Below are positions 5,984-22,362 of a DNA stretch of 64,000 nt, one piece after another. This DNA comes from Alphaproteobacteria bacterium UBA4588 (GTDB lineage: Bacteria > Pseudomonadota > Alphaproteobacteria > Rhodobacterales > Rhodobacteraceae). The translations under genes and the position numbers were made by a program. The stretch's first letter is position 1. Every line of letters begins with the position of its first letter. The stretch spans positions 310,001 through 374,000 of the forward strand of contig CAJJAW010000005.1 of assembly GCA_905182195.1 (NCBI GenBank), written 5' to 3'. The notes under the pieces are model-generated. The model worked only from the letters and a program-made list of their open reading frames with translations, did no database searches and had not been told where the DNA came from.

Positions 5984-6032
5984 CCCACCTGCGGAGCAAA
6001 CAATCTGCCCAATCAAAGCGTAGGAGCCTTGC

Positions 6033-6965: not shown

Positions 6966-6989
6966 GGTCTTTTAACTGGGGGAAATCTA

Positions 6990-8069
6990 ATGAAATTAAA
7001 ATCCATTCTGGCCGGCGCTGCGCTGGCTATGACCGCGGCCACTGGTACGCTAGCTGAAACAACAAAAGTTGGTTTTGTTTATGTAGGACCCGTCGGTGAT
7101 GGCGGCTGGACATATGAGCACGACAAAGGCCGAGAAGCGGTTGTCGCTGCTTTTGGCGACAAAGTTGAAACCATGTATGTTGAAAGTGTTCCAGAGGGCC
7201 CAGACGCTGAACGCGTTATGACCGATATGGCCTTGAAGGGTGCTGATCTAATTTTCACAACCTCCTTTGGATATATGGACCAAACAATAAATGTTGCGGC
7301 CAAATTCCCAAATGTGAAATTTGAGCATGCCACCGGTTATAAGCAATCTGACAACGTGTCTGTTTACTCTGCACGCTTCTATGAGGGTCGTGCCGTTCAA
7401 GGCCACATTGCCGGTCACATGACTAAATCCAATATCGTAGGTTATATAGGTTCCTTCCCAATTCCAGAAGTTATCCGTGGCATCAACGCTGCTTATATTC
7501 ACGCCAAAGAGGTAAACCCTGATGTTCAGTTCAAAATCATCTGGGCTTATACTTGGTTTGACCCAACAAAGGAGGCCGATGCTGCAAAAGTTCTGATCGA
7601 ACAAGGTGCAGATGTCGTGTTGCAACACACAGATTCCACTGCTCCGCAGGCCGCTGCTCAAGCTGCCGGCAACGTAATTACATTTGGCCAAGCCTCTGAC
7701 ATGGCAGCCTACGGTCCAAAACCACGTGTATCTTCCATCATCGACAACTGGGGGCCTTACTACATAGCCCGCACACAAGCAGTTATGGATGGCACATGGG
7801 CCTCCACAAGTACTTGGGATGGTATCGGCGCTGGCATGGTTGGCATCGGCGAAATCACAAGTGCGGTTCCTGCAGGTGTGAAGGCCTCAGCTGAAGCGCT
7901 ACGTGACAGCTTAGCAGATGGATCTTACCACACATTTACAGGTCCTTTAAATAAGCAAGACGGTTCTGTTTGGTTAAAGGCTGGTGAAACCGCTGCCGAT
8001 TATGGCGATGAAGGCTTGGCCAGCATGGGCTTCTACCTTGAAGGTCTTGACAGCGAAGTGCCTAACTAA
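6990..8069 (+). CDS. BMP family ABC transporter substrate-binding protein (purine-type)
   Basis: 359 residues. A signal peptide is visible (MKLKSILAGAALAM, cleavage after about TLA at 22), so the product is periplasmic. The PBP1_BMP fold follows, with the early loop GPVGDGGWTYEHD and the segment DLIFTTSFGYMDQ. This GD-GW type differs from the classic PnrA/TmpC nucleoside type of the second importer in this window. Family members near xanthine dehydrogenase genes are thought to bind purine bases; the ligand here is inferred. A strong GGGGGA ribosome site precedes the ATG, fitting high expression. It is the last gene of the operon, with a terminator 24 bases downstream. Confidence 0.9.
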   Translation: MKLKSILAGAALAMTAATGTLAETTKVGFVYVGPVGDGGWTYEHDKGREAVVAAFGDKVETMYVESVPEGPDAERVMTDMALKGADLIFTTSFGYMDQTINVAAKFPNVKFEHATGYKQSDNVSVYSARFYEGRAVQGHIAGHMTKSNIVGYIGSFPIPEVIRGINAAYIHAKEVNPDVQFKIIWAYTWFDPTKEADAAKVLIEQGADVVLQHTDSTAPQAAAQAAGNVITFGQASDMAAYGPKPRVSSIIDNWGPYYIARTQAVMDGTWASTSTWDGIGAGMVGIGEITSAVPAGVKASAEALRDSLADGSYHTFTGPLNKQDGSVWLKAGETAADYGDEGLASMGFYLEGLDSEVPN

Positions 8070-8092
8070 ACCGTAGATCCTTAATCGGCTTG

Positions 8093-8120
8093 AAAAAGGG
8101 GGCCTCTGGCCTCCTTTTTT
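8093..8120 (+). terminator. Rho-independent terminator of the xdh/BMP operon
   Basis: The sequence forms a 12-pair stem (AAAAAGGGGGCC against GGCCTCCTTTTT, with one G-U pair) around a TCT loop and runs into six T residues. It lies 24 bases after the binding-protein stop codon. Confidence 0.9.
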
Positions 8121-8155
8121 GCTTTTAGACTGCGTTTCCTATGCTTAATTGACCT

Positions 8156-9236
8156 ATGTTGGATTACTTGATCATAGGCGGCGGTATCGCCGGTATCTCT
8201 GCAGCGGCTCGGCTATCTGAGCATGGGGCAACTTTGGTTTTAGAAGCAGAAGCCCATCTAGCCTATCACACCTCAGGCAGATCAGCGGCCCTTTATGAGC
8301 AAAATTATGGTAGCCCCTCAACCGTCGCCCTAGCCAAAGCCGCACGCACTGATTTTGATGGTATGTTATCTGGTGTCTTGAGCCCGCGCGGGTTCTTATT
8401 GGTATGCCTGCAGGGTGAGGAAGCACAATTCGAATATGACCTCGAGCATATGCACCTCAGCGAAGTTGCGGTTGCCGACGCGGCTAAATTGGTGCCAATT
8501 CTGGACAGCTCATCGGTAATACGAACCGCAAGCAGCGCCACTGCACGTGATATTGATACTGATATGATGTTGCAAATATTTGCTCGCCGAATACACGCAA
8601 ATGGTGGAACAGTTGAGACTAATCAACAGGTGACTGCTATTGACAAAACGAAGCAGGAGCTGGCGTGTGACCACAGGAAGTGGACAATATGAAGCGCAAA
8701 AAATAGTGAATGCGGCTGGCGCTTGGGGTGACGAAATTGCTCAATTGGCTGGCCTACCAAAAATTGGACTTACGCCGTTTCGTCGCAGTGTAGCGCGTTT
8801 GTCAGCCCCAGGCGGCCAAGCAGTACAAGGTTGGCCAATGTTGTTTGGCCCTGGCGAGCGGTGGTATGCAAAGCCGGACGCAGGTGGCCTAATAGTGTCA
8901 CTGGCGGAAGAAACACCAAGCCCACCCATGGATGCTTGGGCACATGATATAGATCTTGCCGAAGCCCTCTCACGCTACCAAGATTACGTCACCGAGCCTG
9001 TGACCCGGCCAGTGGCCTCCTGGGCTGGGCTCCGGACGTTCGCACCCGATCGCAACTTAGTTTTAGGGCCAGCCCCACAAGACGACAGCTTTGTGTGGTG
9101 TGTCGGGCAAGGCGGATACGGCTTTTTTACCGCACCCGCCGCCTCACAATTGGTGGCAGATACTGTGGTTGGAAATAAGCCAGATTATTCTGCAGATATT
9201 TTAGCAGAACTGAGCCCCTCAAGGTTTTTAGATTAG
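8156..9236 (+). CDS. FAD-dependent D-amino-acid/glycine oxidase-like protein (frameshifted)
   Basis: A DAO-family flavoenzyme that would oxidise an amine or amino acid; the substrate is unknown. The first frame begins with the FAD-binding GGGIAGISAA motif and runs to about 8645. The protein continues in the next frame from 8640 to 9236 with VTTGSGQYEA, VNAAGAWGDEIA and the C-terminal GQGGYGFFTAPAAS FAD motif. One extra base, probably in the AAAA run at 8645-8648, explains the break. The combined length of about 360 residues is normal for the family. It follows the upstream terminator and is probably a separate unit, convergent with the DMGDH-like gene. The frameshift is more likely a sequence error than decay, because both halves are well conserved. 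Confidence 0.8.
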
Positions 9237-9304
9237 CCATCTCGTACCCAAAGCGTTTTCTCTGTGCGGGTGAAGAGCACACACATGCCCACGCACCAAT
9301 TTAA

Positions 9305-11803
9305 CTAGCCATCAACACGAATGGTTGTATTTTTTGGATCATAAGGGCTATCTTCGACCACTTCACAATTCCAGAGTTGATCCATAATTTTCACCTGAAG
9401 CTTCGTGCCGGGAACGGCCAATTCAGGGGTAACGTACCCTATGCCAATCGATTTTTCAAAATGCACTGAATAACCGCCAGATGTTAGACGACCAGCGCGT
9501 ATCCCTTGGTTATAAAGCACCTCGTGGCCCCATGGATCAGCGTCGGCAGGACCATCAACCAGCAGCGTACAGCATTTCACCCGTACTCCTGTAGCTTCCA
9601 TCTGCTCTTTACCATGGAACTCTTTAGATAGGTCAATAAACCGCGGTAAATCCGCTTCCAAAGGTGACGCATCACGCCCGAGTTCATTGCCAAACGCCCT
9701 ATATGATTTCTCCTGGCGTAGCCAGTTTTGCGCGCGCGCGCCCACCAGCTTCAGGTCATGTTTTTTTCCTGCTTTTTCTAGTAAATCAAAAAGATAGTTT
9801 TGCATTTCCATAGGATGATGCAGCTCCCAGCCCAACTCGCCAGTATAGGCCACACGTATTGCATTCACGGGGCACATGCCCAGCTCAATCTGCTTGGCCG
9901 AAAGCCACGGAAACCGCTTATTGGACAGTGCTGTGGCCGGATCAGGGTCATTGATGATATCTGACAAAAGCGCGCGTGATTTAGGTCCCGCAATGGCAAA
10001 AACGCCCCATTGCGTAGTTACGTCTTGCAGCTCTATGCGACCAAACTCGGCCTCTTTGTCTTCAATTGCCTTCTTCAGATAATCTTGATCATAAGCCGTC
10101 CAAGCACCAGCAGAAACGAGGTAATACTCCTCCTCAGACAGCCGTACGATGGTGTATTCTGTGCGCGTGGTGCCGTGAGAGGTCAACGCATAGGTCAGAT
10201 TAATCCGACCAATACGCGGCAACTTATTGCAGGTGAACCAATCCAGAAACAATGTGGCACCCGGGCCTTTAACAATATGTTTGGTGAAGGCCGTTGCATC
10301 CACAAGTCCTACACCTTCGCGAATAGCCTTGGCTTCATCTACCGCATATTGCCACCATTTCCCACGACGAAAGCTGCGAGCTTTTTCATCAAAATCTTCG
10401 GGCGCATCTAATGGACCAAAGTAATTTGGCCTTTCCCAACCATTCACCCAGCCAAATTGTGCCCCGCGAACCTTTTGGCGTTCATAGGCTGGGGCCGTGC
10501 GCAGAGGTCGCGCCGCCGGACGTTCCTCATCCGGGTGGTGCAAAACATAGACATGATCATAACATTCTTCATTTTTACGCATGGAAAATTCTGTAGTTAT
10601 CCAGTTGCCGTAGCGTTTGGGGTCAAGGCTGGCCATATCGATCTCAGCCTCTCCATCTACCATCATCTGCGCCATGTAATAGCCGGTACCGCCCGCAGCG
10701 GTAATGCCAAAGCTAAAGCCTTCGGCCAGCCACATGTTGCGTAGACCCGGTGCCGGACCTACCAGCGGGTTCCCATCAGGGGTATAGCAAATCGGACCGT
10801 TAAAATCATCTTTGAGACCACTTTCCTCACAGGACGGCACCCGATGGATCATAGCCATATATTGTTCTTCAATGCGGTCCAGCGCTAGCGGGAACAAGTC
10901 AGCGCGGAAACTATCAGGCACCCCATGCTCAAAACGGGCTGGGGCATCTTTCTCATAAACACCAAGAATCCATCCACCACGTTCTTCGCGTACATAGCTT
11001 TGCGCATCTGCATCACGGATCACCGGATGTTCAGGATTTCCAGCCGCTCTGTATTCTACCAGCGCTGGGTCTTTTTCCATCACCACGAATTGATGCTCAA
11101 CTGGGATGGCTGGAATTTTAATTCCGAGCATTGAGGCTGTGCGCTGCGCATGGTTCCCAGAGGCCGTCACCACATGCTCAGCTGTAATCACTACCCGTTC
11201 GTCAGAGGCAACCAAATTGCCACCTTTTTCAATCATTTTAGTGCAGGTTACTTCCCAATGCGTGCCAGTCCAATGGAAGCCATCCGCCTGCCATCTGCGT
11301 TCAATAGAGACCCCAAACTGCCGCGCACCTTTGGCCATGGCCATGGTGACATCAGCAGGATTAATATAGCCATCCGTGTCATGATAAATAGCACCTTTCA
11401 GATCTTCGGTATGGATCAAAGGCCATTTCTTTTTAATCTCATCTGGTGTCATAAACACATAAGGTACACCACAGGTCTCAGCGGTGGAGGCATATAACTT
11501 ATACTCGTCCATTCGCTCATCAGTTTGCGCCATACGCAGGTTGCCTACCACCGCAAACCCAGCATTCAAACCGGTTTCATCCTCAAGAGCCTTATAGAAG
11601 TCTACAGAGTATTTATGGATATGCGTGGTTGCATAGGACATGTTGAACAAAGGCAGAAGCCCTGCCGCATGCCATGTCGATCCAGACGTCAACTCGTCAC
11701 GTTCGATCAGCATGGTGTCCCATCCACGTTTCCCCAGATGGTAGGCAATTGACGTCCCAACGGCACCGCCACCAACAACCAAAGCTTTTACTTGCGTCTT
11801 CAT
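9305..11803 (-). CDS. Dimethylglycine/sarcosine dehydrogenase-like FAD and GcvT-domain protein
   Basis: About 832 residues from the ATG at 11803, chosen because AAAGGGAG lies just upstream; an in-frame ATG at 11836 lacks this. The N-terminal FAD domain has VVGGGAVGTSIAYHLG and GSTWHAAGL, in which family members attach FAD covalently to the His. The C-terminal half is a GcvT-like folate-binding domain (about 430 to the end) with FAIAGPKSR, GELGWELHHP and the DPKNTTIR end. Family members remove methyl groups from dimethylglycine or sarcosine in the glycine-betaine pathway and pass one-carbon units to tetrahydrofolate. The frame is intact. The exact substrate cannot be read from the sequence. 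Confidence 0.85.
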   Translation of the reverse strand: MKTQVKALVVGGGAVGTSIAYHLGKRGWDTMLIERDELTSGSTWHAAGLLPLFNMSYATTHIHKYSVDFYKALEDETGLNAGFAVVGNLRMAQTDERMDEYKLYASTAETCGVPYVFMTPDEIKKKWPLIHTEDLKGAIYHDTDGYINPADVTMAMAKGARQFGVSIERRWQADGFHWTGTHWEVTCTKMIEKGGNLVASDERVVITAEHVVTASGNHAQRTASMLGIKIPAIPVEHQFVVMEKDPALVEYRAAGNPEHPVIRDADAQSYVREERGGWILGVYEKDAPARFEHGVPDSFRADLFPLALDRIEEQYMAMIHRVPSCEESGLKDDFNGPICYTPDGNPLVGPAPGLRNMWLAEGFSFGITAAGGTGYYMAQMMVDGEAEIDMASLDPKRYGNWITTEFSMRKNEECYDHVYVLHHPDEERPAARPLRTAPAYERQKVRGAQFGWVNGWERPNYFGPLDAPEDFDEKARSFRRGKWWQYAVDEAKAIREGVGLVDATAFTKHIVKGPGATLFLDWFTCNKLPRIGRINLTYALTSHGTTRTEYTIVRLSEEEYYLVSAGAWTAYDQDYLKKAIEDKEAEFGRIELQDVTTQWGVFAIAGPKSRALLSDIINDPDPATALSNKRFPWLSAKQIELGMCPVNAIRVAYTGELGWELHHPMEMQNYLFDLLEKAGKKHDLKLVGARAQNWLRQEKSYRAFGNELGRDASPLEADLPRFIDLSKEFHGKEQMEATGVRVKCCTLLVDGPADADPWGHEVLYNQGIRAGRLTSGGYSVHFEKSIGIGYVTPELAVPGTKLQVKIMDQLWNCEVVEDSPYDPKNTTIRVDG

Positions 11804-12200
11804 CGCGAACGACTCCCTTTCACGTTGCGCATACATTGCCCGAAGTCACTCCAAAATAGGAAGACTTGCCGACCTCCCAGTTACAAAACCGACCTTGAAA
11901 CATTTTTCACGCCTGCACGGTTGCGTCTTTGGAGAAAATTCGGTTTGTTGACAAAGGGGTATTGCAGCCAACAAATATACTAATATTTAGAATATGATTT
12001 ACAGAGGTCTCCACTTTTGTCCATTATGGTTTGGTTCGAAATCATCACACTTATGAAGCAGGCACTTTCACAAGTACTATTTGGCCTGGGCTTTCATCGA
12101 GCCTGTTCGCCTCAAACAAGACTAAAAAATAGTCCAAGACGCACAACCTAAGATCCTGATAACTTAAAATTTACTCATACTACCTGAATATCGGTGTTAT
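11804..12200. other. Intergenic region, no gene supported
   Basis: About 400 bases lie between the DMGDH-like gene and the P1 peptidase gene, both on the minus strand. The part next to 11803 must hold the promoter and leader of the DMGDH-like gene, but I could not pin the elements. A TTGACA at 11948-11953 on the plus strand has no well-spaced partner. No terminator hairpin was found after the P1 peptidase stop. Confidence 0.5.
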
Positions 12201-13211
12201 TTAGCTGGACCTATATGTTGGTAAAATATCATCTGCGTGGCTAGTCGCTTCGTAGATGCCGCGAGCAATTGCACGGCTTAAGCAGACAGCAGCCGCAGCG
12301 CCAATATCACGAAATATATTATAATCAACAGCACCGTTGGTCGTAGAAACGCCAAAGATTAAATCACCATCAAGAGGTGTATGCGAAACGATAGCGCGTG
12401 CCATCCCATCGTGGGCAGTGACCGCTAGGCGATGACATTGCGTTTTAGTCAAAGGCGCATCGGTGGCAACAATTGCTATCGTCGTATTGGACATCTCAGC
12501 ATTGAAAACCATCATCGCAGCTTCTTTTAGACTTTGTTTTCCATCAAAGTTAGCATGCTCAGGGTCAACGCCCATACCACCAAATTCACCATCCACTTCA
12601 AAAGGCGCTGCCCAAAAATATTTGCCGCTAGCGGTGGTAACGCTGCCCATAGGATTGGCCACAACTAAAGCTCCCACCGTATAGCCATTTTTCAAAACAA
12701 CAGAAGCCGACCCTAAACCGCCCTTTTGCATTGCGGCCAAAGCGCCTGTTCCGGCACCTACCGTGCCAAGAGGGAATTCACCTGACGCAGTGCTGAGTGC
12801 TTCACGCCCAAGCTCACGGTATGGATTTTCCACCCAATCCTTGTTGCCACCATTAATTAAATCAAAAATGATTGCCCCTGGCACGATTGGAACCCGCATC
12901 GGGCCCACTGGGAAACCACGACCCATTTTTCGCAAACCATCCATAACACCAGAACACGCATCCAGGCCAAATGCAGATCCACCAGATAAAACAAGTGCAT
13001 CAATTTTATCAACTGTTTTATCCGGTGCTAACAGATCAGTTTCTTTTGTTCCCGGAGCCCCACCCATCACATGTACACTCGCCGTAAATGGCACGTCCCC
13101 CACCAAAACCGTACTGCCAGTCTTAAAAAAATTTACTTGGGAATTGCCAACCTTTAGTCCAGCAACATCTGTTATCAAATTTCTTGGACCAGGCCTAGAT
13201 ACAACGCCCAC
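12201..13211 (-). CDS. P1 family peptidase (DmpA/NylC/beta-aminopeptidase type)
   Basis: About 336 residues. P1 (S58) enzymes are Ntn hydrolases that split themselves into two chains and then cleave N-terminal residues from small peptides, beta-peptides, amides or nylon oligomers. Visible motifs are LSGGSAFGLDA near 76-86 and SNTTIAIVATDA near 241-252, where the family cuts between Asn and Thr and uses the new N-terminal Thr or Ser as nucleophile. A GGAGG lies 6 bases before a GTG at 13211; an earlier TTG at 13217 abuts that site and is less likely. The start overlaps the end of the SDR gene, so translation is coupled. It is the last gene of the peptide-importer operon. Confidence 0.9.
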   Translation of the reverse strand: MGVVSRPGPRNLITDVAGLKVGNSQVNFFKTGSTVLVGDVPFTASVHVMGGAPGTKETDLLAPDKTVDKIDALVLSGGSAFGLDACSGVMDGLRKMGRGFPVGPMRVPIVPGAIIFDLINGGNKDWVENPYRELGREALSTASGEFPLGTVGAGTGALAAMQKGGLGSASVVLKNGYTVGALVVANPMGSVTTASGKYFWAAPFEVDGEFGGMGVDPEHANFDGKQSLKEAAMMVFNAEMSNTTIAIVATDAPLTKTQCHRLAVTAHDGMARAIVSHTPLDGDLIFGVSTTNGAVDYNIFRDIGAAAAVCLSRAIARGIYEATSHADDILPTYRSS

Positions 13212-13947
13212 CGTCAACCTCCATTGCCACTCCAGTGATCATACTGGCCTCATCTGAACATAAGAAACAAGCAGCATTGCCCATGTCTTCTGGTGTCGAA
13301 AATCGACCTATTGGAATCGTTGATAAAAATTTTGCACGGATTTCTGGTGTATCTTCGCCCATGAATGACTTCAGCAGTGGGGTCTCACCAGCAACTGGAT
13401 TAATGGCATTAACACGGATTCCCGAAGGGGCGAGTTCAACAGCCATCCCCTTCGTCGCAGTAATCATCCACCCTTTTGACGCATTATACCATGTCAGGCG
13501 CGGCCTCGGGGACACACCCCCAGTCGAGGCTACATTCAGTATTGCGCCGCAGCCACGCTCTTTGAAGTGAGGAACAAATGCCTGTGCAGTCAGGTAGACT
13601 GACTTAATATTAACGTTGTACACTTTCTCAAAATCAGCGGCCGTTACGTCTTCTAATGCTAGAGGCAAATGGGTAGTGCCTGCATTATTCACTAAAATAT
13701 CCAAATGCCCAAAGGCTGTCAAAGCCGCATCTTTCATTGCAAGAACACTGTCCAAATCAGACACGTTACAAAGTTGAGCAATGCCTCCAATTTCAGTGGC
13801 AATACTTAGCGCACCGTCTAGATTTTGATCAGCTACAATGACCTGAGCACCTTCAGCGGCAAATTTTCGGGCAATGCCCGCTCCAAAACCAGAGGCGCCA
13901 CCTGTCACGACTGCAGTTTTTCCTTTAAGTCTCATAAAATCACCCAT
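13195..13947 (-). CDS. SDR family NAD(P)-dependent oxidoreductase
   Basis: 250 residues of a classic short-chain dehydrogenase: TGGASGFGAGI cofactor loop near 16-26, NNAG near 90, an active-site Ser in NVAST and YNASK. It should interconvert an alcohol and a carbonyl using NAD(P); the substrate is unknown. It overlaps the aldehyde dehydrogenase gene by 8 bases if it starts at 13947. An ATG at 13935 (MRLKGK) has GGGTGA just upstream and may be the true start. It sits between the aldehyde dehydrogenase and P1 peptidase genes, suggesting that it makes or consumes an aldehyde or ketone in the same pathway. Confidence 0.88.
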   Translation of the reverse strand: MGDFMRLKGKTAVVTGGASGFGAGIARKFAAEGAQVIVADQNLDGALSIATEIGGIAQLCNVSDLDSVLAMKDAALTAFGHLDILVNNAGTTHLPLALEDVTAADFEKVYNVNIKSVYLTAQAFVPHFKERGCGAILNVASTGGVSPRPRLTWYNASKGWMITATKGMAVELAPSGIRVNAINPVAGETPLLKSFMGEDTPEIRAKFLSTIPIGRFSTPEDMGNAACFLCSDEASMITGVAMEVDGGRCI

Positions 13948-15382
13948 GCCAAGCTGCTACTGTTTTTAATGATGAAAACCCATACAGCGCTTCAAAACCT
14001 TTTTCACGTCCATGCCCTGATTTACCAACACCGCCAAAGGGCAACTCAACCCCTCCACCAGCACCATAGTTGTTAATAAACACTTGGCCAGATCTTAACT
14101 TCTTAGCCAGCCGCATTTGCCGCCCCCCATCTTGGGTCCAAATGGATGCTACCAAACCATACTCAGTATTATTAGCAATTTCTATTGCTTCTAACTCAGT
14201 ATCAAATGGAATAATCACTTGCACAGGTCCGAAGATTTCATCGCGAGCAAGCGGATGATTTGAGGGAACATCTCTGAATAAAGTTGGGCGAACATAAAAG
14301 CCATCCTCGTGAGATACAATATTGCCCTGCGCTGCAACTTTTAAATCATAACCACGATCAATAAATCCAGAAACAATTTCTTTTTGTCGTGCAGAGATTA
14401 ACGGGCCCAGATCTAAATCATCCAGTGCAGAGCCAACGTTTAGTGAAGAATATGCTTCTCCCATGCGTGTGCAAACTGTATCGTAAACACCTCGCTGAAC
14501 AAGAATACGGCTAGATGCCGAACATGTTTGACCTGCATTTTGGATGCCTGCATTAACCAGAAATGGCAATGCTCGATCCAAATCCGCATCCTCAAAAACT
14601 AATTGAGGCGATTTCCCCCCCAATTCTAGTGTAACCGGAACGACGTTCTGTGCTGCCGCTGTTTGGATTAGCTGACCAGTTTTAACAGAACCCGTAAAGG
14701 ATAAATGTTGAATACCTGCATGGGATGAAAGCGCAGCGCCTGCCTCTGAACCCAAACCCGTCACAACATTAAGTGCGCCTGCCGGAAGTCCCGCCTTTTG
14801 CGCAATTTCTGCAAAAGCCAATGCAGTTAAGCAGGCTTCTTCCGCAGGCTTCAACACGCAGGCGTTACCCATCGCAAGCGCGGCACCCACGGATCTGCCA
14901 ACTATTTGCATCGGATAATTCCATGGAACAATATGGCCAGTCACACCATGCGGTTCGCGCAATGTGTAGACAGTGTACTCATCCAGATAAGGAATAGTTT
15001 CACCAGTAATTTTATCTGCTGCACCACCATAAAATTCCATATAACGAGCAAGAGCCACCGCGTCAGCACGCGCTTGCGTTAGCGGTTTTCCAACGTCTAT
15101 CGCTTCAATCTTGGCAAGGTCCTCCACATGATTAAGAACGGCCACTCCTACTTTGATAAGGATCCTGCCCCGCTCTAGCGCAGTCATTGCTCCCCACTCT
15201 CCCACCAATGCGGATTGAGCTGCATTAACGGCCGCATCAATGTCTGCAATGGTTCCACGCGCGATACTAGTGATTGGCCTATTGGTAGAAGGATCAATAA
15301 CTTCAATTTCAGCGTCAGCCTGAACCCAAACACCCCCAATTAAATTATGGGCCCTCGGGATATCAAACAGTTTCAATAGCAT
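13940..15382 (-). CDS. NAD(P)-dependent aldehyde dehydrogenase
   Basis: About 480 residues from the ATG at 15382, which has CGGAGG 6-8 bases upstream; a longer frame from 15415 is less likely. Family landmarks are PWNYPMQ, FTGSVKTG, LELGGKSPQ (general-base Glu) and GQTCSASS (catalytic Cys), then EIFGPVQ. It oxidises an aldehyde to the acid. The type resembles betaine-aldehyde and aminoaldehyde dehydrogenases, but the substrate cannot be assigned. It overlaps the ABC ATPase gene by 20 bases, linking it to the importer. Confidence 0.9.
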   Translation of the reverse strand: MLLKLFDIPRAHNLIGGVWVQADAEIEVIDPSTNRPITSIARGTIADIDAAVNAAQSALVGEWGAMTALERGRILIKVGVAVLNHVEDLAKIEAIDVGKPLTQARADAVALARYMEFYGGAADKITGETIPYLDEYTVYTLREPHGVTGHIVPWNYPMQIVGRSVGAALAMGNACVLKPAEEACLTALAFAEIAQKAGLPAGALNVVTGLGSEAGAALSSHAGIQHLSFTGSVKTGQLIQTAAAQNVVPVTLELGGKSPQLVFEDADLDRALPFLVNAGIQNAGQTCSASSRILVQRGVYDTVCTRMGEAYSSLNVGSALDDLDLGPLISARQKEIVSGFIDRGYDLKVAAQGNIVSHEDGFYVRPTLFRDVPSNHPLARDEIFGPVQVIIPFDTELEAIEIANNTEYGLVASIWTQDGGRQMRLAKKLRSGQVFINNYGAGGGVELPFGGVGKSGHGREKGFEALYGFSSLKTVAAWHG

Positions 15383-16958
15383 ACGTAACCTCCGGAAGTT
15401 TTGGTGCAGCGGCAATTAAACTTTGCGTGTAAGCATGTTGTGGATTGGAAAATACTTGTTCTGTTTGACCTTGCTCTACTATTTTACCAAACTGCATGAC
15501 TATCACGCGATCAGTAACCGTGCGTACGACTGACAGATCGTGACTTATGAACAGGTAAGCCAAAGGTCGTTTTTGACATAAATCAGCAATCAAATCTAAA
15601 ACCTGGGCGCGTATCGATACATCTAAAGCGGAAACGGCTTCGTCAAATATGATGAGTTCAGGTTCAATAATCAGCGCACGGGCAATGGCGATCCGTTGGC
15701 GTTGTCCGCCAGAAAATTCATGAATGTATTTGTTTGCATCAGTAGCTGATAAGCCAACATCCTCCAGAGCTTTTGAAACAGCAAGGCCTCTCTCTTTACC
15801 AACCGGAGCATTTTCTAAAACGTGAAGCGGTTCAGCAATCAGCCTATCCACGCGGTGACGCGGGTTGAAAGAACCATAGGGATCTTGAAATACAACCTGC
15901 ATCTTGCGGCGGACCTCCATATTCAGATTTTTTTGCACAAAAACGGGTTGCCCATCTAGCGTGATTTGGCCTTTTTGAACTTCTTCAAGTCCTAAAATAG
16001 CTCGTGTCAGAGTTGATTTTCCACAGCCACTTTCACCAACTAACCCTACACGTTCACCGTGGGATATGTGGAAACTGATACCATCCAATGCTTGAAGCTT
16101 TGGACGAGAGCCAAAAACCGAAGTGCGCGGCAAATTATAAGTTCGAGCTACAGATTCAACTGATAAAAGTGGTAGTGACGGTATATATTCAGGAAGATTA
16201 ACCCTGTGCGTAGACGCATTAAAGAGCGCCTTAGTGTAGGGGTGCCGCATATTGTATAATAACTCATGCGTGTCTTCAGCCTCAACAATACAGCCCTTCT
16301 GCATTACAATAATTTTGTCTGCAATTTCTGCCACAACTGCCAAGTCATGTGTAATGATCAATAGCCCCATATCAAAGTCAGCGACCAGATCTTTAAGAAG
16401 CTCTAGAATACGAGCTTGTGTTGTCACATCCAACGCAGTCGTAGGTTCATCCGCAATTAGTAGCTTTGGCCGTAATGCTATTGCCATAGCAATAACAACC
16501 CGCTGGCGTTGGCCTCCAGATAATTCATGCGGATAACGAGAAGGTTCAACGGTGAGGCCTACACGCTGCAACATATCTGCAGCGCGCTTATTAGCATCAA
16601 ACTTTGTGACCCTCTCATGAATTATAATAGTTTCAGCAACTTGGTCCCCAATCGTTTTTACAGGATTAAGAGCCGTCATAGGCTCCTGGAACACCATGCC
16701 CATAGCACGCCCTCGCATGCTACATAGATCATGTTCCGACGTTGTCAGAATGTCCTTTTCCTCTAACCAGATAGAACCTTTAGTCACAGATCCACGAGGC
16801 AAAAGCCCCATGACAGCTAGCGCCGTAAGAGATTTTCCTGACCCACTCTCCCCTGTGATCGCTACAATCTCACCCGAGAGCATATCTATAGAAACGTCCT
16901 GCAAAATTTGAATACCACCGATGGAAAGTGACAGATCCTTGACGTGCAAAAGGTTCAT
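15363..16958 (-). CDS. Peptide/nickel-type ABC transporter, fused ATPases (DppD-DppF)
   Basis: 531 residues containing two complete ABC ATPase domains, equivalent to DppD and DppF joined in one chain. The first has GESGSGKSLT, LSGGQRQR and LLIADEPTTALD; the second has GESGCGKSTL, FSGGQRQR and IIFDEAVSALD. Unlike in the BMP ATPases, both halves look catalytically complete. It powers uptake through the DppC- and DppB-like permeases, and overlaps dppC by 4 bases. Confidence 0.92.
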   Translation of the reverse strand: MNLLHVKDLSLSIGGIQILQDVSIDMLSGEIVAITGESGSGKSLTALAVMGLLPRGSVTKGSIWLEEKDILTTSEHDLCSMRGRAMGMVFQEPMTALNPVKTIGDQVAETIIIHERVTKFDANKRAADMLQRVGLTVEPSRYPHELSGGQRQRVVIAMAIALRPKLLIADEPTTALDVTTQARILELLKDLVADFDMGLLIITHDLAVVAEIADKIIVMQKGCIVEAEDTHELLYNMRHPYTKALFNASTHRVNLPEYIPSLPLLSVESVARTYNLPRTSVFGSRPKLQALDGISFHISHGERVGLVGESGCGKSTLTRAILGLEEVQKGQITLDGQPVFVQKNLNMEVRRKMQVVFQDPYGSFNPRHRVDRLIAEPLHVLENAPVGKERGLAVSKALEDVGLSATDANKYIHEFSGGQRQRIAIARALIIEPELIIFDEAVSALDVSIRAQVLDLIADLCQKRPLAYLFISHDLSVVRTVTDRVIVMQFGKIVEQGQTEQVFSNPQHAYTQSLIAAAPKLPEVTYAIETV

Positions 16959-17770
16959 GTCCGCTCCACCTTAATACGAGGATCAAAAAGATCTCGCAGA
17001 CCATCACCCATCAAATTCAAACCTAGAACCATAAGTAAAATAGCAAGCCCTGGGACAAGTGCTACATGAGGTGCGATGCTGACCAATGTTTGTGCATCAG
17101 CAAGCATACGGCCCCAACTTGCGGTTGGTGGTTGCGCGCCCAACCCAATGTATGAAAGCGAGGCTTCTGCCAAAATGCCGAGGCTAAATTGTATTGTTCC
17201 CTGGACAATCATCAAATTAGTAATGTTGGGAAAAATATGTTCAATTGAAATACGTGCCTCAGACTTTCCACAAACTCTGGCGGATAAAACAAAATCTCGC
17301 TCCCAGAGGGGAAGTGCTGCCGCACGTGTGAGGCGTGCAAAAACAGGAATATTAAAGATACCTATCGCAACAATTGCATTCACAGCAGACGCCCCAAAAA
17401 CAGCTGTGATCAGGATCGCAATTACCAAAGAAGGAAACGCAAATATAAGATCATTTCCACGCATTATAATTTCGTCAATAAAGGATCCTCGCCGGGCTGC
17501 AGAGAAAAGCCCCAAAGGCACGCCAATCGCAACCCCAATACCGACAGCCAGTAATGCCACGGCAATTGATGTACGTGCTCCCATCATGATCATTGAAAAA
17601 ATATCGCGGCCAAAGTGATCGGTCCCCAACCAATGATTAAAGTTAGGTTTTTTTAGTTTGTTCGCAATTTCTAGAGTTTCAATATCATAAGGTACCCAAA
17701 GAAAGGAAATACATGCCAACCCCATAAATACAAGGCTTAGAAAGCTACCAATAATTAGCCCACGTTTCAT
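16955..17770 (-). CDS. Peptide-type ABC transporter permease (DppC-like)
   Basis: 271 residues with an N-terminal membrane anchor and about five further segments. The motifs HWLGTDHFGRDIFS near 47-60 and the EAA loop near 190 (EASLSYIGLGAQPP) are typical of DppC/OppC. It overlaps the neighbours on both sides by 4 bases, showing tight coupling in the operon. Confidence 0.92.
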   Translation of the reverse strand: MKRGLIIGSFLSLVFMGLACISFLWVPYDIETLEIANKLKKPNFNHWLGTDHFGRDIFSMIMMGARTSIAVALLAVGIGVAIGVPLGLFSAARRGSFIDEIIMRGNDLIFAFPSLVIAILITAVFGASAVNAIVAIGIFNIPVFARLTRAAALPLWERDFVLSARVCGKSEARISIEHIFPNITNLMIVQGTIQFSLGILAEASLSYIGLGAQPPTASWGRMLADAQTLVSIAPHVALVPGLAILLMVLGLNLMGDGLRDLFDPRIKVERT

Positions 17771-18738
17771 ACTTTGCTTCTCAGTCTTGGATCAACAGCT
17801 GCATAGGCAAGATCTACCGCAAAATTAACCATGATCACTGTGAACACCAACAGCATCACAACACTTTCCACAACGATTAAATCACGGGCAGAAATAGCTT
17901 GGAAGATCAGACGCCCAAGGCCTGGTAAAAAGAAAATTTGTTCAATTATGATGCCACCAGCTAAAAGGAACGAGAACTGCAGGCCAATGATAGTAATAAC
18001 CGGAATAAGTGCGTTACGCACAGCATGTCTCCAGAGTGCTTGGCTTCGCGTCAGTCCCTTAGCGCGCGCCGTTCTTATGAAATCCTCAGAAAGCATGTCT
18101 AGTAACGAAGACCGCATAATACGCGCGAGAATGGCAGCTTGAGGGAGCGCCAATGATATAGCGGGAAGTGTAAGTGATTTCAGTCCCTGTAATGGGCTAT
18201 TCCAGCCCGGAAAACCTCCAGCAGAAAACCAACGCAAGTGAATTGCAAAAATCAAAACCATTATCATTGCAAACCAAAAATTAGGAATAGCAACACCCAT
18301 CTGTGTTGCCCCCATAATTGTGACATCACTTGCCCCACCGCGACGGCTTGCAGCTAAAATACCTGCTGGAAACGCGATGAGTGTGGAGAGAATTAGCGCA
18401 TAAATAGCAAGTGGAAGAGAGACCCAAATTCGATCCGAAATTAACTCCGAAACTGGTGTTTTATAGGTCCAAGAATTTCCAAAATCACCTTGCAATAAAC
18501 CAATTACCCAGTCAAAATATCTGACTGCTAGAGGCTGATCAAGGCCCATCTCGCTGCGCAATGCCGCAAGCGTGTCTTCTCGGGCGTTTATACCCAACAT
18601 AAACGAAGCAGGGTCACCAGGAATAACTTCAATAACTGAAAATATTACCAGCGACGCAATAACGAGACTAATAATCAGGGATGACAATCGACCAAGAGTA
18701 TAGCGGATCACTTCAAAAAACCTCACTGGCTCTGTCAT
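17767..18738 (-). CDS. Peptide-type ABC transporter permease (DppB-like)
   Basis: About 323 residues with six membrane segments. The N-terminal VIPGDPA motif and the GGIIIEQIFFLPGLG segment near 270 mark DppB/OppB. I use the ATG at 18738; a TTG at 18750 is an alternative. It follows dppA after about 220 bases that hold a stable hairpin. With DppC it forms the inner-membrane channel. Confidence 0.92.
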   Translation of the reverse strand: MTEPVRFFEVIRYTLGRLSSLIISLVIASLVIFSVIEVIPGDPASFMLGINAREDTLAALRSEMGLDQPLAVRYFDWVIGLLQGDFGNSWTYKTPVSELISDRIWVSLPLAIYALILSTLIAFPAGILAASRRGGASDVTIMGATQMGVAIPNFWFAMIMVLIFAIHLRWFSAGGFPGWNSPLQGLKSLTLPAISLALPQAAILARIMRSSLLDMLSEDFIRTARAKGLTRSQALWRHAVRNALIPVITIIGLQFSFLLAGGIIIEQIFFLPGLGRLIFQAISARDLIVVESVVMLLVFTVIMVNFAVDLAYAAVDPRLRSKV

Positions 18739-18924
18739 GCAGCCACTCAAATGATAATAGCAACATCATAAACAGGCTGTCACCTCTCAGGTTAGACAGG
18801 TATTCTCTGTAGCCTTAGCAACAATCACATGCCTATTACTATTCGTAAATAACATGAAATTCCTGCAACTTTTCAGTGCTGTAACTTAGGAATTATCTTT
18901 ACCTATTCTTATATCAGCACACAT

Positions 18925-18952
18925 GACCTTGGCGCTCATAAGCGCCAAGGTC
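18925..18952 (-). other. Stable hairpin between dppA and dppB
   Basis: A perfect 12-pair inverted repeat, GACCTTGGCGCT and AGCGCCAAGGTC, with a 4-base loop. On the transcribed minus strand no T-tract follows, so it is unlikely to be a full terminator. Such hairpins after binding-protein genes often block 3' mRNA decay or attenuate read-through, leaving more binding protein than permease. Confidence 0.65.
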
Positions 18953-18960
18953 AGTTATTT

Positions 18961-20436
18961 TTAATCTGCCCAGCTTACAACAGTAAGGTCAACAGCTGCA
19001 GTTGGTTGGTTCACCCAAAGTCCACGAACGCCTGCCTTTGCAACAGTTGCCACGGCAAGTTCAAACAAATAGCCATTCACATAATCTTCTGAGATTATTT
19101 TCTGGGCTTTGGCCAACAAAGCTGAGCGACCTACCGGATCAGCAGTTGCATTAAGTTCTATCATCAGCGCCTGGAAAACAGGGTTGTCGTATTGGAAATA
19201 GTATTCTGGATTAGCATAAATTCCTATATCCATTGGTTCAGTATGACTTACAATTGATAAACCAAAGTCCTTTGCCTTAAAGACTTCTTCAATCCACTGT
19301 GACCATTCCAAATTACTAATCTCAGCATTAATTCCAACTTGACGCAATTGGCTGGCAATTATTTCACCACCACGACGCGCATAGGAAGGAGGTGGTAATT
19401 TTAATGTCGTTGAAAAGCCGTCAGGAAAGCCTGCTTCCACAAGAAGTGCTTTAGCTTTGGCGGGATCATAAGAAGAGTTACCTAATAGATCAACGTAATC
19501 GGGGTTGTGCGGCGCAAAGTGCGTCCCAATTGGAGTTCCATATCCAAACATTGCACCATCAATAATGGCCTGACGGTCGATGGCGTGAGCGACCGCTTTG
19601 CGTACCAATAAATTATCGAATGGCGGCATTTTATTGTTTGTAGAGAGGATCGTTTCTCCTTCAGTGTTGCCAACAAGAACTTGAAACCGTGCATCAGCTT
19701 CAAATTGGGGTAGGTTTTCGGGTGCTGGAAAGCCTACAAAAACATCTACATCTTCTGCCATCACCGCGGCAAACGCCGCTGTTGGATCCGAAATAAAACG
19801 GAATGTAGCACTTTCTAATACTGCAGCTGTTCCCCAATAACTATCGTTGCGCACTAACTCTAGACGATCACCTTGGACCCAGTCACTAAAAGTAAAAGCA
19901 CCAGTTCCAATAGGGTTTGATGCTATATTTTCTATGCTTTCTGGTGCGACGATGACAGCATCACCCCAAGCCATATTGAACAAAAAACTACCGTTAGGTT
20001 GATCAAGTGTAACTTTTACTGTCCTAGAATTAACTACTGAAACGTCTGTAATACCAGAAAAAAGTCCCTTTTGAGCGTTAGTACTATCTTCAGACCGGGC
20101 ACGGTCCAGGCTAAACTTCACGTCTTCGGCATCCATTGAGGTACCGTCATGAAACATAACGCCACTGTTCAAGTTAAAAGTATAGACAGTTCCATCGCTA
20201 GAAATATCCCAACTCTTCGCAAGACCGGGCACCACAGCGCCGTCGCCTTCGAAGCGCGTTAACCCTTCAAATACGTTTGAATACAAGACGCTGTCGATCG
20301 CTTGTGCGGCACCACCTGTTGGATCGAGGTTAGGTGGCTCCAACTGGATAGCAACAGTTATATCTGTTTGCGCAGATGCAATGCCCCCAAGCAAGGCAAC
20401 AGCAGTTGCCGTTACAGTAAATACCAAATTCCTCAT
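18961..20436 (-). CDS. Peptide-type ABC transporter substrate-binding protein (DppA-like)
   Basis: 491 residues, family SBP_bac_5. A signal peptide ends near ASAQT (22-24), so the mature protein is periplasmic. The family start (AIQLEPPNLDP) and the FHDGTSMDAEDVKFSLDR segment are clear. It selects the solute for the importer. The ligand may be a peptide, amide or other oligomer; the two hydrolases in the operon favour an amide-bonded compound. A GGGAGAAAG ribosome site precedes the ATG. It lies 20 bases after the M20 gene. Confidence 0.92.
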   Translation of the reverse strand: MRNLVFTVTATAVALLGGIASAQTDITVAIQLEPPNLDPTGGAAQAIDSVLYSNVFEGLTRFEGDGAVVPGLAKSWDISSDGTVYTFNLNSGVMFHDGTSMDAEDVKFSLDRARSEDSTNAQKGLFSGITDVSVVNSRTVKVTLDQPNGSFLFNMAWGDAVIVAPESIENIASNPIGTGAFTFSDWVQGDRLELVRNDSYWGTAAVLESATFRFISDPTAAFAAVMAEDVDVFVGFPAPENLPQFEADARFQVLVGNTEGETILSTNNKMPPFDNLLVRKAVAHAIDRQAIIDGAMFGYGTPIGTHFAPHNPDYVDLLGNSSYDPAKAKALLVEAGFPDGFSTTLKLPPPSYARRGGEIIASQLRQVGINAEISNLEWSQWIEEVFKAKDFGLSIVSHTEPMDIGIYANPEYYFQYDNPVFQALMIELNATADPVGRSALLAKAQKIISEDYVNGYLFELAVATVAKAGVRGLWVNQPTAAVDLTVVSWAD

Positions 20437-20456
20437 AAGCTTTCTCCCTATTTATG

Positions 20457-21758
20457 TTATTTTTGTAATAGAATATCCGCAAGACAACGAGCCATAACTT
20501 GCACACTATCCATCATATCTTCGACACCTACGTACTCGTCAGGTTTGTGGGCAAGCTCAAGTATACCGGGCCCATAGGCTATGCAATTCTTTAATGTTCC
20601 AATTCGATCAATGTGTTTTTGATCATATGTTCCCGGAGACGCCACAAATTCTGCAGGCTTGCCCATAACAATTTCGATTTGTTTAGCCACGCTTACCGCA
20701 ATAGGTGCATGACGGTCAGTCATCGATGGCAAGACACTGTTTAATTCACGCATTTCGTATTCAAACTTGGGTCTTTCAGCCTTCAACTCATTCAAAAGGC
20801 TTTCAACTTCATCTCGCACGCCATCCAAGGTTTCTTCAACTAAAAAGCGGCGATCAATTACGATGCGGCAGCTATCAGGGACACAATGCGCCGGCAAACC
20901 TGTAAAGTCTTCATCGTGTTCAGATTGGCCACCATGAATTGAATTGATATTCATTGTCGAGGAGCGGGCACCATCAGGAACGACGGGCATATCAGTGCGT
21001 CGCTCCGCCATTGCTGGGAAAAGTGCCATTTCAAATTTGTCGATTACAGCGCCCATGTGTCTGACTGCACAATCGCCAAGAAATGGCATCGAACCATGTG
21101 CAATCTCACCAAAAGTCTCGATTTCAGCCCACCAACCACCTCGATGGCCTAAGCACACACGATCCTTATTCAACGGCTCAGGTATAATAACATGCTGGAC
21201 GCGCTTTGGATTGAAGTATCCCTTTTCCGCCAAATATGCGACACCACCGTAACCACCAGATTCCTCATCACCAGTAGCAGATATCTCTATTGCACCCTGA
21301 AAATCTGGGTTAGTATCAACGAAGGCCTCGGCTGCAATTATCGACGCTGCCAAACCGCCCTTCATATCACAAGCACCCCGACCATAAATCTTTCCATCGA
21401 CCAGCGCACCACCAAACGGGTCCTGTGTCCAACCACTTCCAACTTCGACCACATCAATGTGGCTGTTAAAGTGAACACAGTCTCCGGCACGCGCACCGTC
21501 CCGACGCGCAACCAAATTCCATCGTGGATATTTATCACTGTCTCCTGGCGTACCATAAGCCCGCACCAATTCAGTTATAAACCCACTTTTAGTAAGTCTT
21601 TTATCAAGAAATTCACAAATTTCCCTATAATTTTTACCTGGAGGGTTAAGGGTCGGAATGCGGATCAAATCTTGCGTCAATAAAATTAAATCATCTCGCC
21701 TAGAGGAAATTTCGCTTAAAAGCGGTTCGAGCTTGGCCTGCTGGAGTAATTTCGTCAT
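20457..21758 (-). CDS. M20 family metallohydrolase (ArgE/DapE/ACY1-type deacylase)
   Basis: 433 residues. Zinc-ligand motifs are visible: FNSHIDVV near 98-105, GRGACDMKGG, the GDEESGG catalytic Glu pair, and a C-terminal His in LAHKPDEY. M20 enzymes hydrolyse N-acyl amino acids, dipeptides or succinyl-diaminopimelate in the cytoplasm. The position as first gene of the importer operon suggests a catabolic role on an imported amide rather than arginine or lysine synthesis. It is divergent from the PAS-LuxR regulator across a 61-base region with a likely operator. Confidence 0.88.
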   Translation of the reverse strand: MTKLLQQAKLEPLLSEISSRRDDLILLTQDLIRIPTLNPPGKNYREICEFLDKRLTKSGFITELVRAYGTPGDSDKYPRWNLVARRDGARAGDCVHFNSHIDVVEVGSGWTQDPFGGALVDGKIYGRGACDMKGGLAASIIAAEAFVDTNPDFQGAIEISATGDEESGGYGGVAYLAEKGYFNPKRVQHVIIPEPLNKDRVCLGHRGGWWAEIETFGEIAHGSMPFLGDCAVRHMGAVIDKFEMALFPAMAERRTDMPVVPDGARSSTMNINSIHGGQSEHDEDFTGLPAHCVPDSCRIVIDRRFLVEETLDGVRDEVESLLNELKAERPKFEYEMRELNSVLPSMTDRHAPIAVSVAKQIEIVMGKPAEFVASPGTYDQKHIDRIGTLKNCIAYGPGILELAHKPDEYVGVEDMMDSVQVMARCLADILLQK

Positions 21759-21782
21759 AAACCTAGTATTAAGAAAAATAAA

Positions 21783-21810
21783 TACGGTGGCAATACCGTA
21801 ATAATACGGT
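21783..21810. promoter_or_regulatory. TACGGT repeat cluster, likely operator
   Basis: The 61-base gap between the M20 gene and the divergent PAS-LuxR gene holds TACGGT (21783-21788), its inverse ACCGTA (21795-21800) and a second TACGGT (21805-21810). The first two form a perfect 6-6-6 inverted repeat; the inverse and the third form a 6-4-6 arrangement. Placement in a divergent regulator/operon gap suggests binding by the PAS-LuxR protein, which is an inference. Confidence 0.6.
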
Positions 21811-21819
21811 AAAATTTAT

Positions 21820-22362
21820 ATGGTTAATTATACAAAATTGGCTTTTGATAATGCCCCTGTTGGATTAGTTATATCTGAAAATCGGATAATAAAATGTTGT
21901 AATTCAACATTTTCTTCGATGTTAGGGTATACGCCTAAAGATATTCAAGGCAAATCCTTTCGAATGTTTTATGGTTCAAATGAAGAGTTTGAAAAAATTC
22001 AACATGTGGGGATCAATGCGCTAAAAACTAGAGGCAACTACAGCGATGAACGACTCTTACACCATCGTGAGGGACACAGCGTATGGTGCCGTTTTCGTGC
22101 ACATTCCTTAACACCAGATCAGCCTTTAGATAGAATTATTTTGAGTTATGCACAGATTTCTAACAATACTCAAACTATCACCCTAAGTAAGCGAGAGCGA
22201 CAAGTTCTTGGTTTAATGAACCAAGGGATGAGCAGCAAAGAAATCGCGAGCGACTTGGAATTGTCACCACGCACTATTGATGATGTACGATCAAGACTTA
22301 TCAAGCGCTTCAAAGTTAAGAGGTGCTCAGACTTGTTAGGCCGAATGACGGAGCTAGGCTGA
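21820..22362 (+). CDS. PAS domain-containing LuxR-type transcriptional regulator
   Basis: 180 residues. Residues about 5-110 form a PAS domain (APVGLVISENRI, MLGYTPKDIQGKSFRMFYG), and about 120-178 a LuxR/GerE helix-turn-helix (LSKRERQVLGLMNQGMSSKEIA, then SPRTIDDVRSRLIKRF). There is no receiver domain, so it probably senses a small ligand directly. It is divergent from the M20-dpp operon and is its obvious candidate regulator. I see no strong ribosome site before the ATG. The local sequence is more A+T-rich than the neighbouring genes. Confidence 0.85.
   Translation: MVNYTKLAFDNAPVGLVISENRIIKCCNSTFSSMLGYTPKDIQGKSFRMFYGSNEEFEKIQHVGINALKTRGNYSDERLLHHREGHSVWCRFRAHSLTPDQPLDRIILSYAQISNNTQTITLSKRERQVLGLMNQGMSSKEIASDLELSPRTIDDVRSRLIKRFKVKRCSDLLGRMTELG

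Follow-up and report, generated by a model that had tools for sequence, protein, structure and literature searches.

The 64,000-nucleotide window, the whole stretch of DNA analysed here, contains an operon that, on balance, we believe to serve the uptake and processing of vitamin B5 compounds through import, cleavage and oxidation. It very probably acts on a pantothenate (vitamin B5) compound, and the DppABC-DF importer is likely to supply the vitamin. The gene set is present in and conserved across genera, physically linked to panB and panC, and associated with the absence of panC.

All eight genes lie on the minus strand. The first encodes an M20 hydrolase (20457..21758; Peptidase_M20), followed after 20 bases by the family-5 solute-binding protein DppA (18961..20436; SBP_bac_5) and, after a further 210 bases, by the permeases DppB (17767..18750) and DppC (16955..17770; both BPD_transp_1). 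The fused ATPase DppDF (15363..16958), with two ABC_tran stretches in a single protein, completes the importer. Downstream are an aldehyde dehydrogenase (ALDH, 13940..15415; Aldedh), a short-chain dehydrogenase (SDR, 13195..13947; adh_short_C2) and a ThnT-like P1/S58 N-terminal-nucleophile hydrolase (P1, 12201..13217; Peptidase_S58). The tight packing reported in the preliminary description, with overlaps of 4–23 bases, is seen at four of the seven junctions: 4 bases at both DppB/DppC and DppC/DppDF, 8 at ALDH/SDR and 23 at SDR/P1. The DppDF/ALDH overlap measures 53 bases, or 20 if ALDH starts at the next ATG. Divergent from M20 and separated from it by 61 bases, a plus-strand reading frame (21820..22362) combines PAS and GerE domains, and domain searches matched the families named earlier for this PAS-LuxR gene and all eight operon genes. 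The neighbourhood is retained beyond the strain, and its recurrence in other genera indicates more than chance. This conserved unit makes it plausible, as first proposed, that one importer operon with hydrolases and oxidoreductases acts on one unusual amide. The set had not been recognised as a named pathway, and likewise no description of it was found in the open-licence PMC literature (titles and abstract openings). A flanking DMGDH-like gene (9305-11836) neighbours P1 in 3 of 34 P1 loci, and an SSADH adjoins P1 in some genomes; both were excluded from the unit.

Conservation was assessed in 198 genomes from 197 genera of the window bacterium's family, of which 113 bear panC and 85 lack it. 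Genomes at least 80% complete were accepted, a limit at which some gene absences may be gaps; among the 182 genomes that are at least 90% complete, 104 carry panC. The E-value limits for orthologues were our choice (1e-170 or better for DppA), and the gene positions and presence lists behind the family counts were transcribed by hand. Loci were cut at about 20 kb, and a gene missing from a locus may lie elsewhere in the genome. Neither PanB nor PanC has a match in the window genome at E 1e-20, which suggests that this marine bacterium has no genes for B5 synthesis; strong PanB matches occur in only 2 of the 85 genomes without panC.

In many genera panB-panC sits inside or beside the gene set, and others keep the same gene order without it. 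Among the panC-bearing genomes, 36 of 113 have panBC near dppA or M20. Counting the 111 genomes with strong PanB matches (out of 136 matching at E 1e-20), panB and dppA lie no more than 4 kb apart in 28 of the 42 genomes with both, and the two genes are divergent in 28/28; this figure, taken from gene positions, and the spacer count given below are better than a count of 10/18 from stop-to-stop frames, which is too low because such frames overlap. Within 25 kb of panC we found M20 in 19 of 37 genomes with both (within 2 kb in 14 of these 37), SDR in 24 of 50 and P1 in 33 of 78, the last count using 150 of the 170 P1 matches, whereas presence and absence counts use all 170. The panB-dppA spacers of 29 of 31 loci measure 120-391 bases by approximate starts and contain promoter-like conserved bases; no clear operator was seen in them. 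Moreover, the A. leguminum pTi carries, in a row, panB, panC, an FCD regulator, an amidase, a DMT transporter, DppABC-DF and an M20 gene, which places the link between panBC and the importer in another family. The M20 protein of this block has no detectable relationship to that of the window.

The importer is concentrated where panC is missing. DppA occurs in 80/85 panC-less versus 43/113 panC-bearing genomes (Fisher 2e-17), SDR in 70/85 versus 50/113, M20 in 62/85 versus 37/113, ALDH in 61/85 versus 40/113 and P1 in 79/85 versus 91/113. SDR and ALDH largely travel together: of 121 genomes with either, 100 have both, 20 SDR only and 1 ALDH only. Four of the 70 panC-bearing genomes without DppA, for instance G137, retain M20, SDR and ALDH, which shows that these enzymes can occur apart from the importer. 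On a tree of one gene, CoaX, from 120 of 147 matching genomes (roughly the best-scoring, a few skipped, chosen blind to traits), DppA correlates with panC at a phi of -0.60, a value reached by 0 of 1500 simulated traits. Averaged over 200 pairings, the 33 independent pairs drawn from all branches had DppA solely in the panC-less member 15.9 times and solely in the other 0.2 times, against 6.1 versus 5.0 for the control family TIGR02089. Well-supported branches yield only 9 independent pairs, with 3.8 versus 0.0 for DppA (median p 0.125), 2.5 versus 0.3 for M20, 2.8 versus 0.5 for SDR and 3.1 versus 0.3 for ALDH. A search for the symporter PanF (TIGR02119) at E 1e-60 gave a match in 0 of 198 genomes, although it did recover PanF in E. 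coli.

One clue to the chemistry comes from P1, which matches PF03576 at 184.2 bits (cut-off 23.9). Its nearest relative of solved structure and first match is ThnT (PDB 3s3u, 3tm1; E 1e-53), and it shares 39.9% identity with an S. cattleyicolor gene that carries no annotation, presumably thnT. N244-T245 of P1 aligns with an Asn-Thr pair of ThnT that we take to be the ThnT self-cleavage site; N244, T245 and T246 are invariant in 10 aligned sequences, and P1 is predicted to cleave itself between N244 and T245. Nylon-type oligomers were considered as a substrate and rejected, as nylon hydrolases are less close to P1 than ThnT. No observation pointed towards N-acyl amino alcohols. In an account of ThnT, a carbapenem-bound pantetheinyl group is degraded to cysteamine (PMC6097109). 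By analogy, we propose that P1 is a pantetheine-type amide hydrolase.

The M20 protein is an NCBIfam PRK13013 equivalog (769 bits, cut-off 428), ALDH matches PDB 4ywe at 642 bits, and none of P1, M20, SDR and ALDH corresponds to a pantothenase or pantoate dehydrogenase that has been characterised. Chemistry and gene order suggest that M20 is an N-acyl-beta-alanine (pantothenate) amidohydrolase, SDR a pantoate 4-dehydrogenase and ALDH a 4-oxopantoate dehydrogenase; as written, the four enzyme assignments are tentative and somewhat less likely to be right than wrong. DppA is a candidate for the receptor that would bind pantothenate or a compound of the pantetheine type. By its domain families the importer is of the peptide/opine/nickel type. 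DppA falls below every NCBIfam cut-off, those for named substrates included (GsiB 200/594 bits, NikA 167/393, DppA 145/1005), and so do both permeases, whereas the two domains of the fused ATPase pass several (dipeptide ATPase subfamily, NikD, NikE, CntD, CntF).

The operon might then work as follows. DppABC-DF would import pantothenate or a larger amide that contains it, for example pantetheine, and P1 would cleave pantetheine-type compounds at their beta-alanyl amide, releasing pantothenate. In the window strain, type III pantothenate kinase (PanK), which is encoded in 147 of 149 genomes, the window genome included, could channel this pantothenate into CoA synthesis. As this kinase type is described as unable to phosphorylate pantetheine (PMC12406275), imported pantetheine would need hydrolysis. 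Surplus pantothenate would be split by M20, or by an AS-family amidase in some relatives, into pantoate and beta-alanine, and SDR followed by ALDH would oxidise pantoate via 4-oxopantoate to 3,3-dimethylmalate. From there, a LeuB-like beta-decarboxylating dehydrogenase would lead to 2-oxoisovalerate. Such an enzyme could be present in Ensifer canadensis, where GntR-ALDH-SDR-DppA-B-C-D-F-amidase-LeuB run in one direction; matches to ALDH, SDR, DppA and LeuB span 9.3-9.5 kb in 10/10 Ensifer/Sinorhizobium records, 7 of them from one species. The Ensifer LeuB may be a housekeeping enzyme, since it scores as a genuine LeuB and shares 91.6-93.0% identity with the LeuB proteins of other Rhizobiaceae. 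TIGR02089, a candidate for the missing dimethylmalate dehydrogenase, was rejected: it occurs in 43/198 genomes without a link to panC (27/113 panC-bearing versus 16/85 panC-less, p 0.49) and served as negative control, and its absence from the window genome means that a dedicated dimethylmalate dehydrogenase was not found there.

Vitamin breakdown by a cell unable to make B5 would need tight control, and this counts against the reading. The PAS-LuxR protein may regulate the unit. Of 59 long named loci, 17 hold a relative; in 15 of these it is divergent to M20 or DppA, and in 1 it occurs together with panC. Set against the preliminary description, the importer/hydrolase/oxidoreductase unit of a catabolic system holds, and what it missed is the vitamin link, namely panBC in or beside the cluster and the tie to panC absence. 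The amino-alcohol or aminoaldehyde part that it proposed is not required: the evidence favours pantothenate compounds, whose oxidisable alcohol sits in the acyl half, pantoate, and whose amine half is beta-alanine or cysteamine.

It is possible, though unlikely, that the operon performs salvage only, the importer taking up pantetheine or pantothenate conjugates and the four enzymes releasing pantothenate or clearing by-products with no use of carbon. Of all the parts, DppA and P1 vary least among genomes that lack panC (P1 in 77 of the 80 with DppA), five of these 80 have none of M20, SDR and ALDH, and type III PanK would require prior pantetheine hydrolysis. However, this leaves SDR and ALDH without a clear job, although they occur in 66 and 59 of the 80 genomes and stand with amidase and LeuB in Ensifer.

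Among 150 marine isolates surveyed for vitamin needs, none was reported as a B5 auxotroph, although 87% of the Rhodobacterales in that survey were auxotrophs (PMC12448291). Shimia is among the strains listed there, and our three named Shimia loci contain the operon and lack panBC within the stretch. The absence of B5 auxotrophs counts against the B5 reading. We speculate, with little confidence, that panBC-less Rhodobacteraceae convert an unrecognised marine form of B5 (pantetheine, its disulfides or a pantothenate conjugate) to pantothenate through the importer and enzyme set, with M20, SDR and ALDH working toward pantothenate. If true, these bacteria would not depend on free pantothenate, which could bear on the survey's lack of B5 auxotrophs.

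General peptide or amide catabolism, with panBC nearby by inheritance and panC absent through ecology or genome reduction, appears very unlikely. Every protein belongs to a broad family and several occur in other settings: P1 is common also without the operon (170/198 genomes at E 1e-60; within Planktomarina it was found in 13 of 20 genomes), and in Sinorhizobium, Roseomonas and Rhizobium its neighbours are other transporters or oxidoreductases; M20 orthologues adjoin unrelated genes in Paracoccus, Azospirillum and Ideonella; and ALDH-SDR pairs accompany TRAP, AtuA-DUF4387 and other genes. The panC association was, moreover, computed without genome size as a covariate. Nevertheless, the simulation, run on a tree with 33 changes in panC, upholds the association and the control family shows none, panB is divergent from dppA in every near pair, and the A. 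leguminum block repeats the link in another family. More improbable still is an import of beta-Ala-X peptides from which P1 and M20 free beta-alanine for PanC: panC is a neighbour, the P1 family has beta-aminopeptidases and M20-family relatives include beta-Ala-His dipeptidase, but the set is commonest where panC is absent, the opposite of what a supply to PanC predicts, the beta-peptidyl aminopeptidase match of P1 is weak (3e-6 versus 1e-53 for ThnT), and SDR and ALDH would have no use.

If the preferred reading, B5 uptake and processing, is true, ocean bacteria have an unrecognised route to obtain B5. It would offer a possible cause for the absence of panC in 85 of 198 genomes from this major family of marine bacteria, and B5 exchange among plankton could be tested through these genes.

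Among known systems, classical pantothenate degradation in Pseudomonas fluorescens proceeds through EC 3.5.1.22, 1.1.1.106, 1.2.1.33 and 1.1.1.84, and its later, pantoate-oxidising steps are old biochemical activities. A hydrolase, the alcohol and aldehyde dehydrogenases and the Ensifer LeuB-type enzyme would fit these steps one to one; judged by family, amidohydrolase and alcohol and aldehyde dehydrogenases are encoded together in both the window operon and the Ensifer block. Whereas the P. fluorescens pathway is known from activity, the window-type set is known from its genes and adds an importer and the ThnT-like P1. Pantothenate hydrolase was published in 1966 and the pantothenase protein was still called unknown in a 2023 text (PMC10393543); the operon offers candidates for the genes of pantothenase and of the enzymes that oxidise pantoate, long-missing proteins of old activities. 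ThnT itself is the pantetheine hydrolase of thienamycin synthesis, whereas P1 sits in a transport operon.

The importer resembles DppABCDF and GsiABCD in having a family-5 binding protein, two permeases and two ATPase domains, and differs in its fused ATPases and its link to panBC. Opt1 of yeast is not an ABC transporter, and TcyJKLMN of B. subtilis is a cystine system. Both are amino acid or peptide transporters described as importing pantetheine-type disulfides, and the enzyme set of the window operon does not feature in the available text of these accounts (PMC11487621, PMC12406275). The bacterial B5 importers named in the available text of a 2025 review are PanF, PanS and PanT, which share the proposed function of B5 import; of these, PanF works as a symporter and PanT belongs to the energy-coupling-factor systems, whereas the window type, a family-5 binding-protein ABC importer, would be a kind beyond those named there (PMC12570885).

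The operon on the minus strand of the window (12201–21758) is, with high confidence, an ordinary-looking peptide importer operon linked to vitamin B5 (pantothenate); both position and co-occurrence speak for the link. The order given in the preliminary description, M20-DppA-DppB-DppC-DppDF-ALDH-SDR-P1 plus a PAS-LuxR gene reading away from M20, is borne out by the open reading frames, protein families and gene junctions. The host genome measures 2.62 Mb. Within the window's own genome and 60 relatives, 36 of 61 carry the P1 hydrolase gene (E 0.001 or better). At 34 P1 loci, bounded at 20 kb or a contig end and clustered at 40% identity, the neighbours were SDR (23), DppDF (22), DppC (20), DppB (19), ALDH (19), DppA (16) and M20 (9). 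Qingshengfaniella alkalisoli keeps the whole gene order, including the divergent LuxR gene. The most frequent sets among 59 named loci, each longer than 21 kb and retrieved via DppA, were DppA to P1 without M20 (16), M20 to SDR without P1 (14) and all eight genes (12).

Several further genes adjoin these loci. Directly downstream of the operon (9305–11836, minus strand) lies the gene for an FAD protein that resembles DMGDH/sarcosine oxidase and includes a GCV_T part; its cluster is among the neighbours at 3/34 P1 loci, all close relatives. In four loci from Roseobacter, Thalassococcus and Tateyamaria (L066, L074, L075, L076) the gene set is plasmid-borne and adjoins dxs and photosynthesis genes; some add a cupin, a GNAT protein, a histone-deacetylase-like AcuC and a class-V aminotransferase. 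A succinate-semialdehyde dehydrogenase gene lies near P1 in several Rhodobacteraceae (scanned in L041, L046 and L047; by similarity in L043, L048 and L080).

In Roseobacter litoralis, panC and panB adjoin the M20 gene, and panCB and dppA are transcribed divergently in Tateyamaria and Ruegeria sp. TM1040; we therefore searched for each gene family-wide, in 198 genomes from 197 genera. Among genomes having both genes, the distance from panC was at most 25 kb to P1 in 33/78 (among the P1 matches listed, 150 of 170), to M20 in 19/37 and to SDR in 24/50. Near any of the three it was found in 38 of 113 panC genomes (25 kb; among the P1 matches listed). For two random genes in a roughly 4-Mb genome, we estimate such proximity in about 1 in 100 cases. 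The distance between dppA and panB was below 4 kb in 28 of the 42 genomes having both, and all 28 pairs were divergent. A complete order reads M20 - panC panB (reverse) - dppABC-DF - ALDH - P1.

Plasmids carry related arrangements. On the Ruegeria sp. TM1040 megaplasmid (9995–21673), panC-panB and dppABC-DF stand beside pncB and pncA, making B5 and B3 genes neighbours. The Ti plasmid pTiCFBP4996 of Agrobacterium leguminum (2963–15182) holds panB, panC, an FCD-domain regulator, an amidase (62% to the Ensifer amidase), a DMT transporter and DppABC-DF, together with an M20 protein showing no detectable relationship to that of the window.

Co-occurrence was assessed across the same 198 genomes. 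DppA was found in 80/85 panC-less vs 43/113 panC-bearing genomes, and in 14 of 77 panC-bearing genomes whose panBC is away from dppA (4 kb) and M20 (25 kb). SDR, M20 and ALDH are likewise commoner without panC, while P1 is more widespread (79/85 vs 91/113). To control for kinship we used a tree built from 120 type III pantothenate kinase proteins, on which the panC state changes at least 33 times. The observed association was reached by 0/1500 simulated traits for DppA, M20, SDR and ALDH alike; the negative-control family TIGR02089 showed no association, with 1481/1500 traits reaching its value. Across 33 independent pairs on all branches, the mean numbers with the gene in the panC-less member only vs the other only were 15.9 and 0.2 for DppA, 14.7 and 1.1 for M20, 15.6 and 1.6 for SDR, 16.2 and 0.5 for ALDH, and 6.1 and 5.0 for TIGR02089. 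The test leans on weakly supported branches, since well-supported ones leave 9 pairs (DppA 3.8 vs 0.0, median p 0.125).

A PAS-LuxR relative occurs in 17 of the 59 long named loci, divergent to M20 or DppA in 15, and panC is present in 1/17 of these loci vs 18/42 without the regulator (p 0.006). PAS-LuxR seems tied to the panC-less form of the operon. In L041, a Rhodobacteraceae locus, a cyclic-nucleotide-binding-domain gene (8041–8607, plus strand) between ALDH and SDR is a candidate for another regulator.

The window genome gave no match to PanB or PanC at E 1e-20 and has one type III kinase, and a search for the known importer PanF at E 1e-60, positive in E. coli, found it in 0/198 genomes. 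Because of this, the operon's importer appears, on present evidence, to be the leading candidate for supplying B5 to the window's organism. PMC12448291, which surveyed 150 marine isolates, gives auxotrophies for B1, B3, B7, B9 and B12, with B5 not among them, which stays a point against simple B5 auxotrophy. According to Table A2 in PMC7142369, both genes occur in Roseovarius, Paracoccus, Ruegeria and Phaeobacter strains and neither in Jannaschia sp. CCS1, Ketogulonigenium vulgarum, Oceanibulbus indolifex and Octadecabacter antarcticus; the surveyed isolates may be mostly of the both-genes kind. One isolate was a Shimia (PMC12448291), and three named Shimia loci have the operon, with panBC absent from the stretch.

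We propose that the importer probably brings in a B5 compound, from which P1 would free pantothenate; this would probably be turned into CoA, and the surplus degraded by M20, SDR and ALDH. The enzyme roles are hypotheses open to test. The closest solved relative of P1 is ThnT (E 1e-53), followed by nylon hydrolase (5e-42) and, far behind, beta-aminopeptidases (3e-6); its Asn-Thr site aligns with that of ThnT and is invariant in the aligned sequences. ThnT converts a pantetheinyl group to cysteamine (PMC6097109). Since P1 is present in 77 of the 80 panC-less genomes with DppA, all of M20, SDR and ALDH in 46 and none of those three in 5, the pattern is consistent with an importer required for vitamin supply, accompanied by a losable breakdown arm. 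The main rival, that the importer brings in pantetheine or conjugates of pantothenate and all four enzymes release pantothenate or clear by-products, with no breakdown for carbon, we consider unlikely. As a caution on the proposed roles, M20, SDR and ALDH together are retained in 4/70 panC-bearing genomes without DppA. One panBC-bearing genome (G137), with no DppA match genome-wide at E 1e-170, groups M20, panC, panB, ALDH, SDR and P1 (L096), an enzyme set without the importer.

As for import followed by breakdown, M20 belongs to equivalog PRK13013, whose substrate is unassigned, and SDR and ALDH are both present in 100 of the 121 genomes having either. Two further cautions are that M20 and P1 orthologues in other bacteria can also stand alone, adjoining unrelated genes, and that ALDH-SDR pairs also serve other systems. 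Relatives of both dehydrogenases lie on Klebsiella pneumoniae plasmid pHNLC3 (6316–14375) inside a catabolic cluster that also encodes an AtuA-family protein, DUF4387, fumarate hydratase and one more alcohol and aldehyde dehydrogenase. At three same-genus loci (L039, L040, L065) an AS-family amidase follows SDR and M20 is absent from the stretch; the scanned L040 copy is PRK07487, and the other two cluster with it. In L139 and L147 such an amidase is divergent from dppA. A non-homologous replacement of M20's amide-cleaving step is possible. Pantothenase, the enzyme of the classical route, is treated in PMC10393543.

Ensifer canadensis carries, by annotation of one record, a single block of GntR, ALDH, SDR, DppA, DppB, DppC, DppD, DppF, amidase and LeuB, and matches to ALDH, SDR, DppA and LeuB span 9.3–9.5 kb in 10/10 Ensifer/Sinorhizobium records, 7 of them Ensifer adhaerens. 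This LeuB has a LeuB-grade score and may be an ordinary leucine gene. The classical pantothenate route comprises pantothenate hydrolysis, two pantoate oxidations and oxidative decarboxylation of 3,3-dimethylmalate, and the enzyme families of the Ensifer block, with activities predicted from the genes, fit steps of this degradation.
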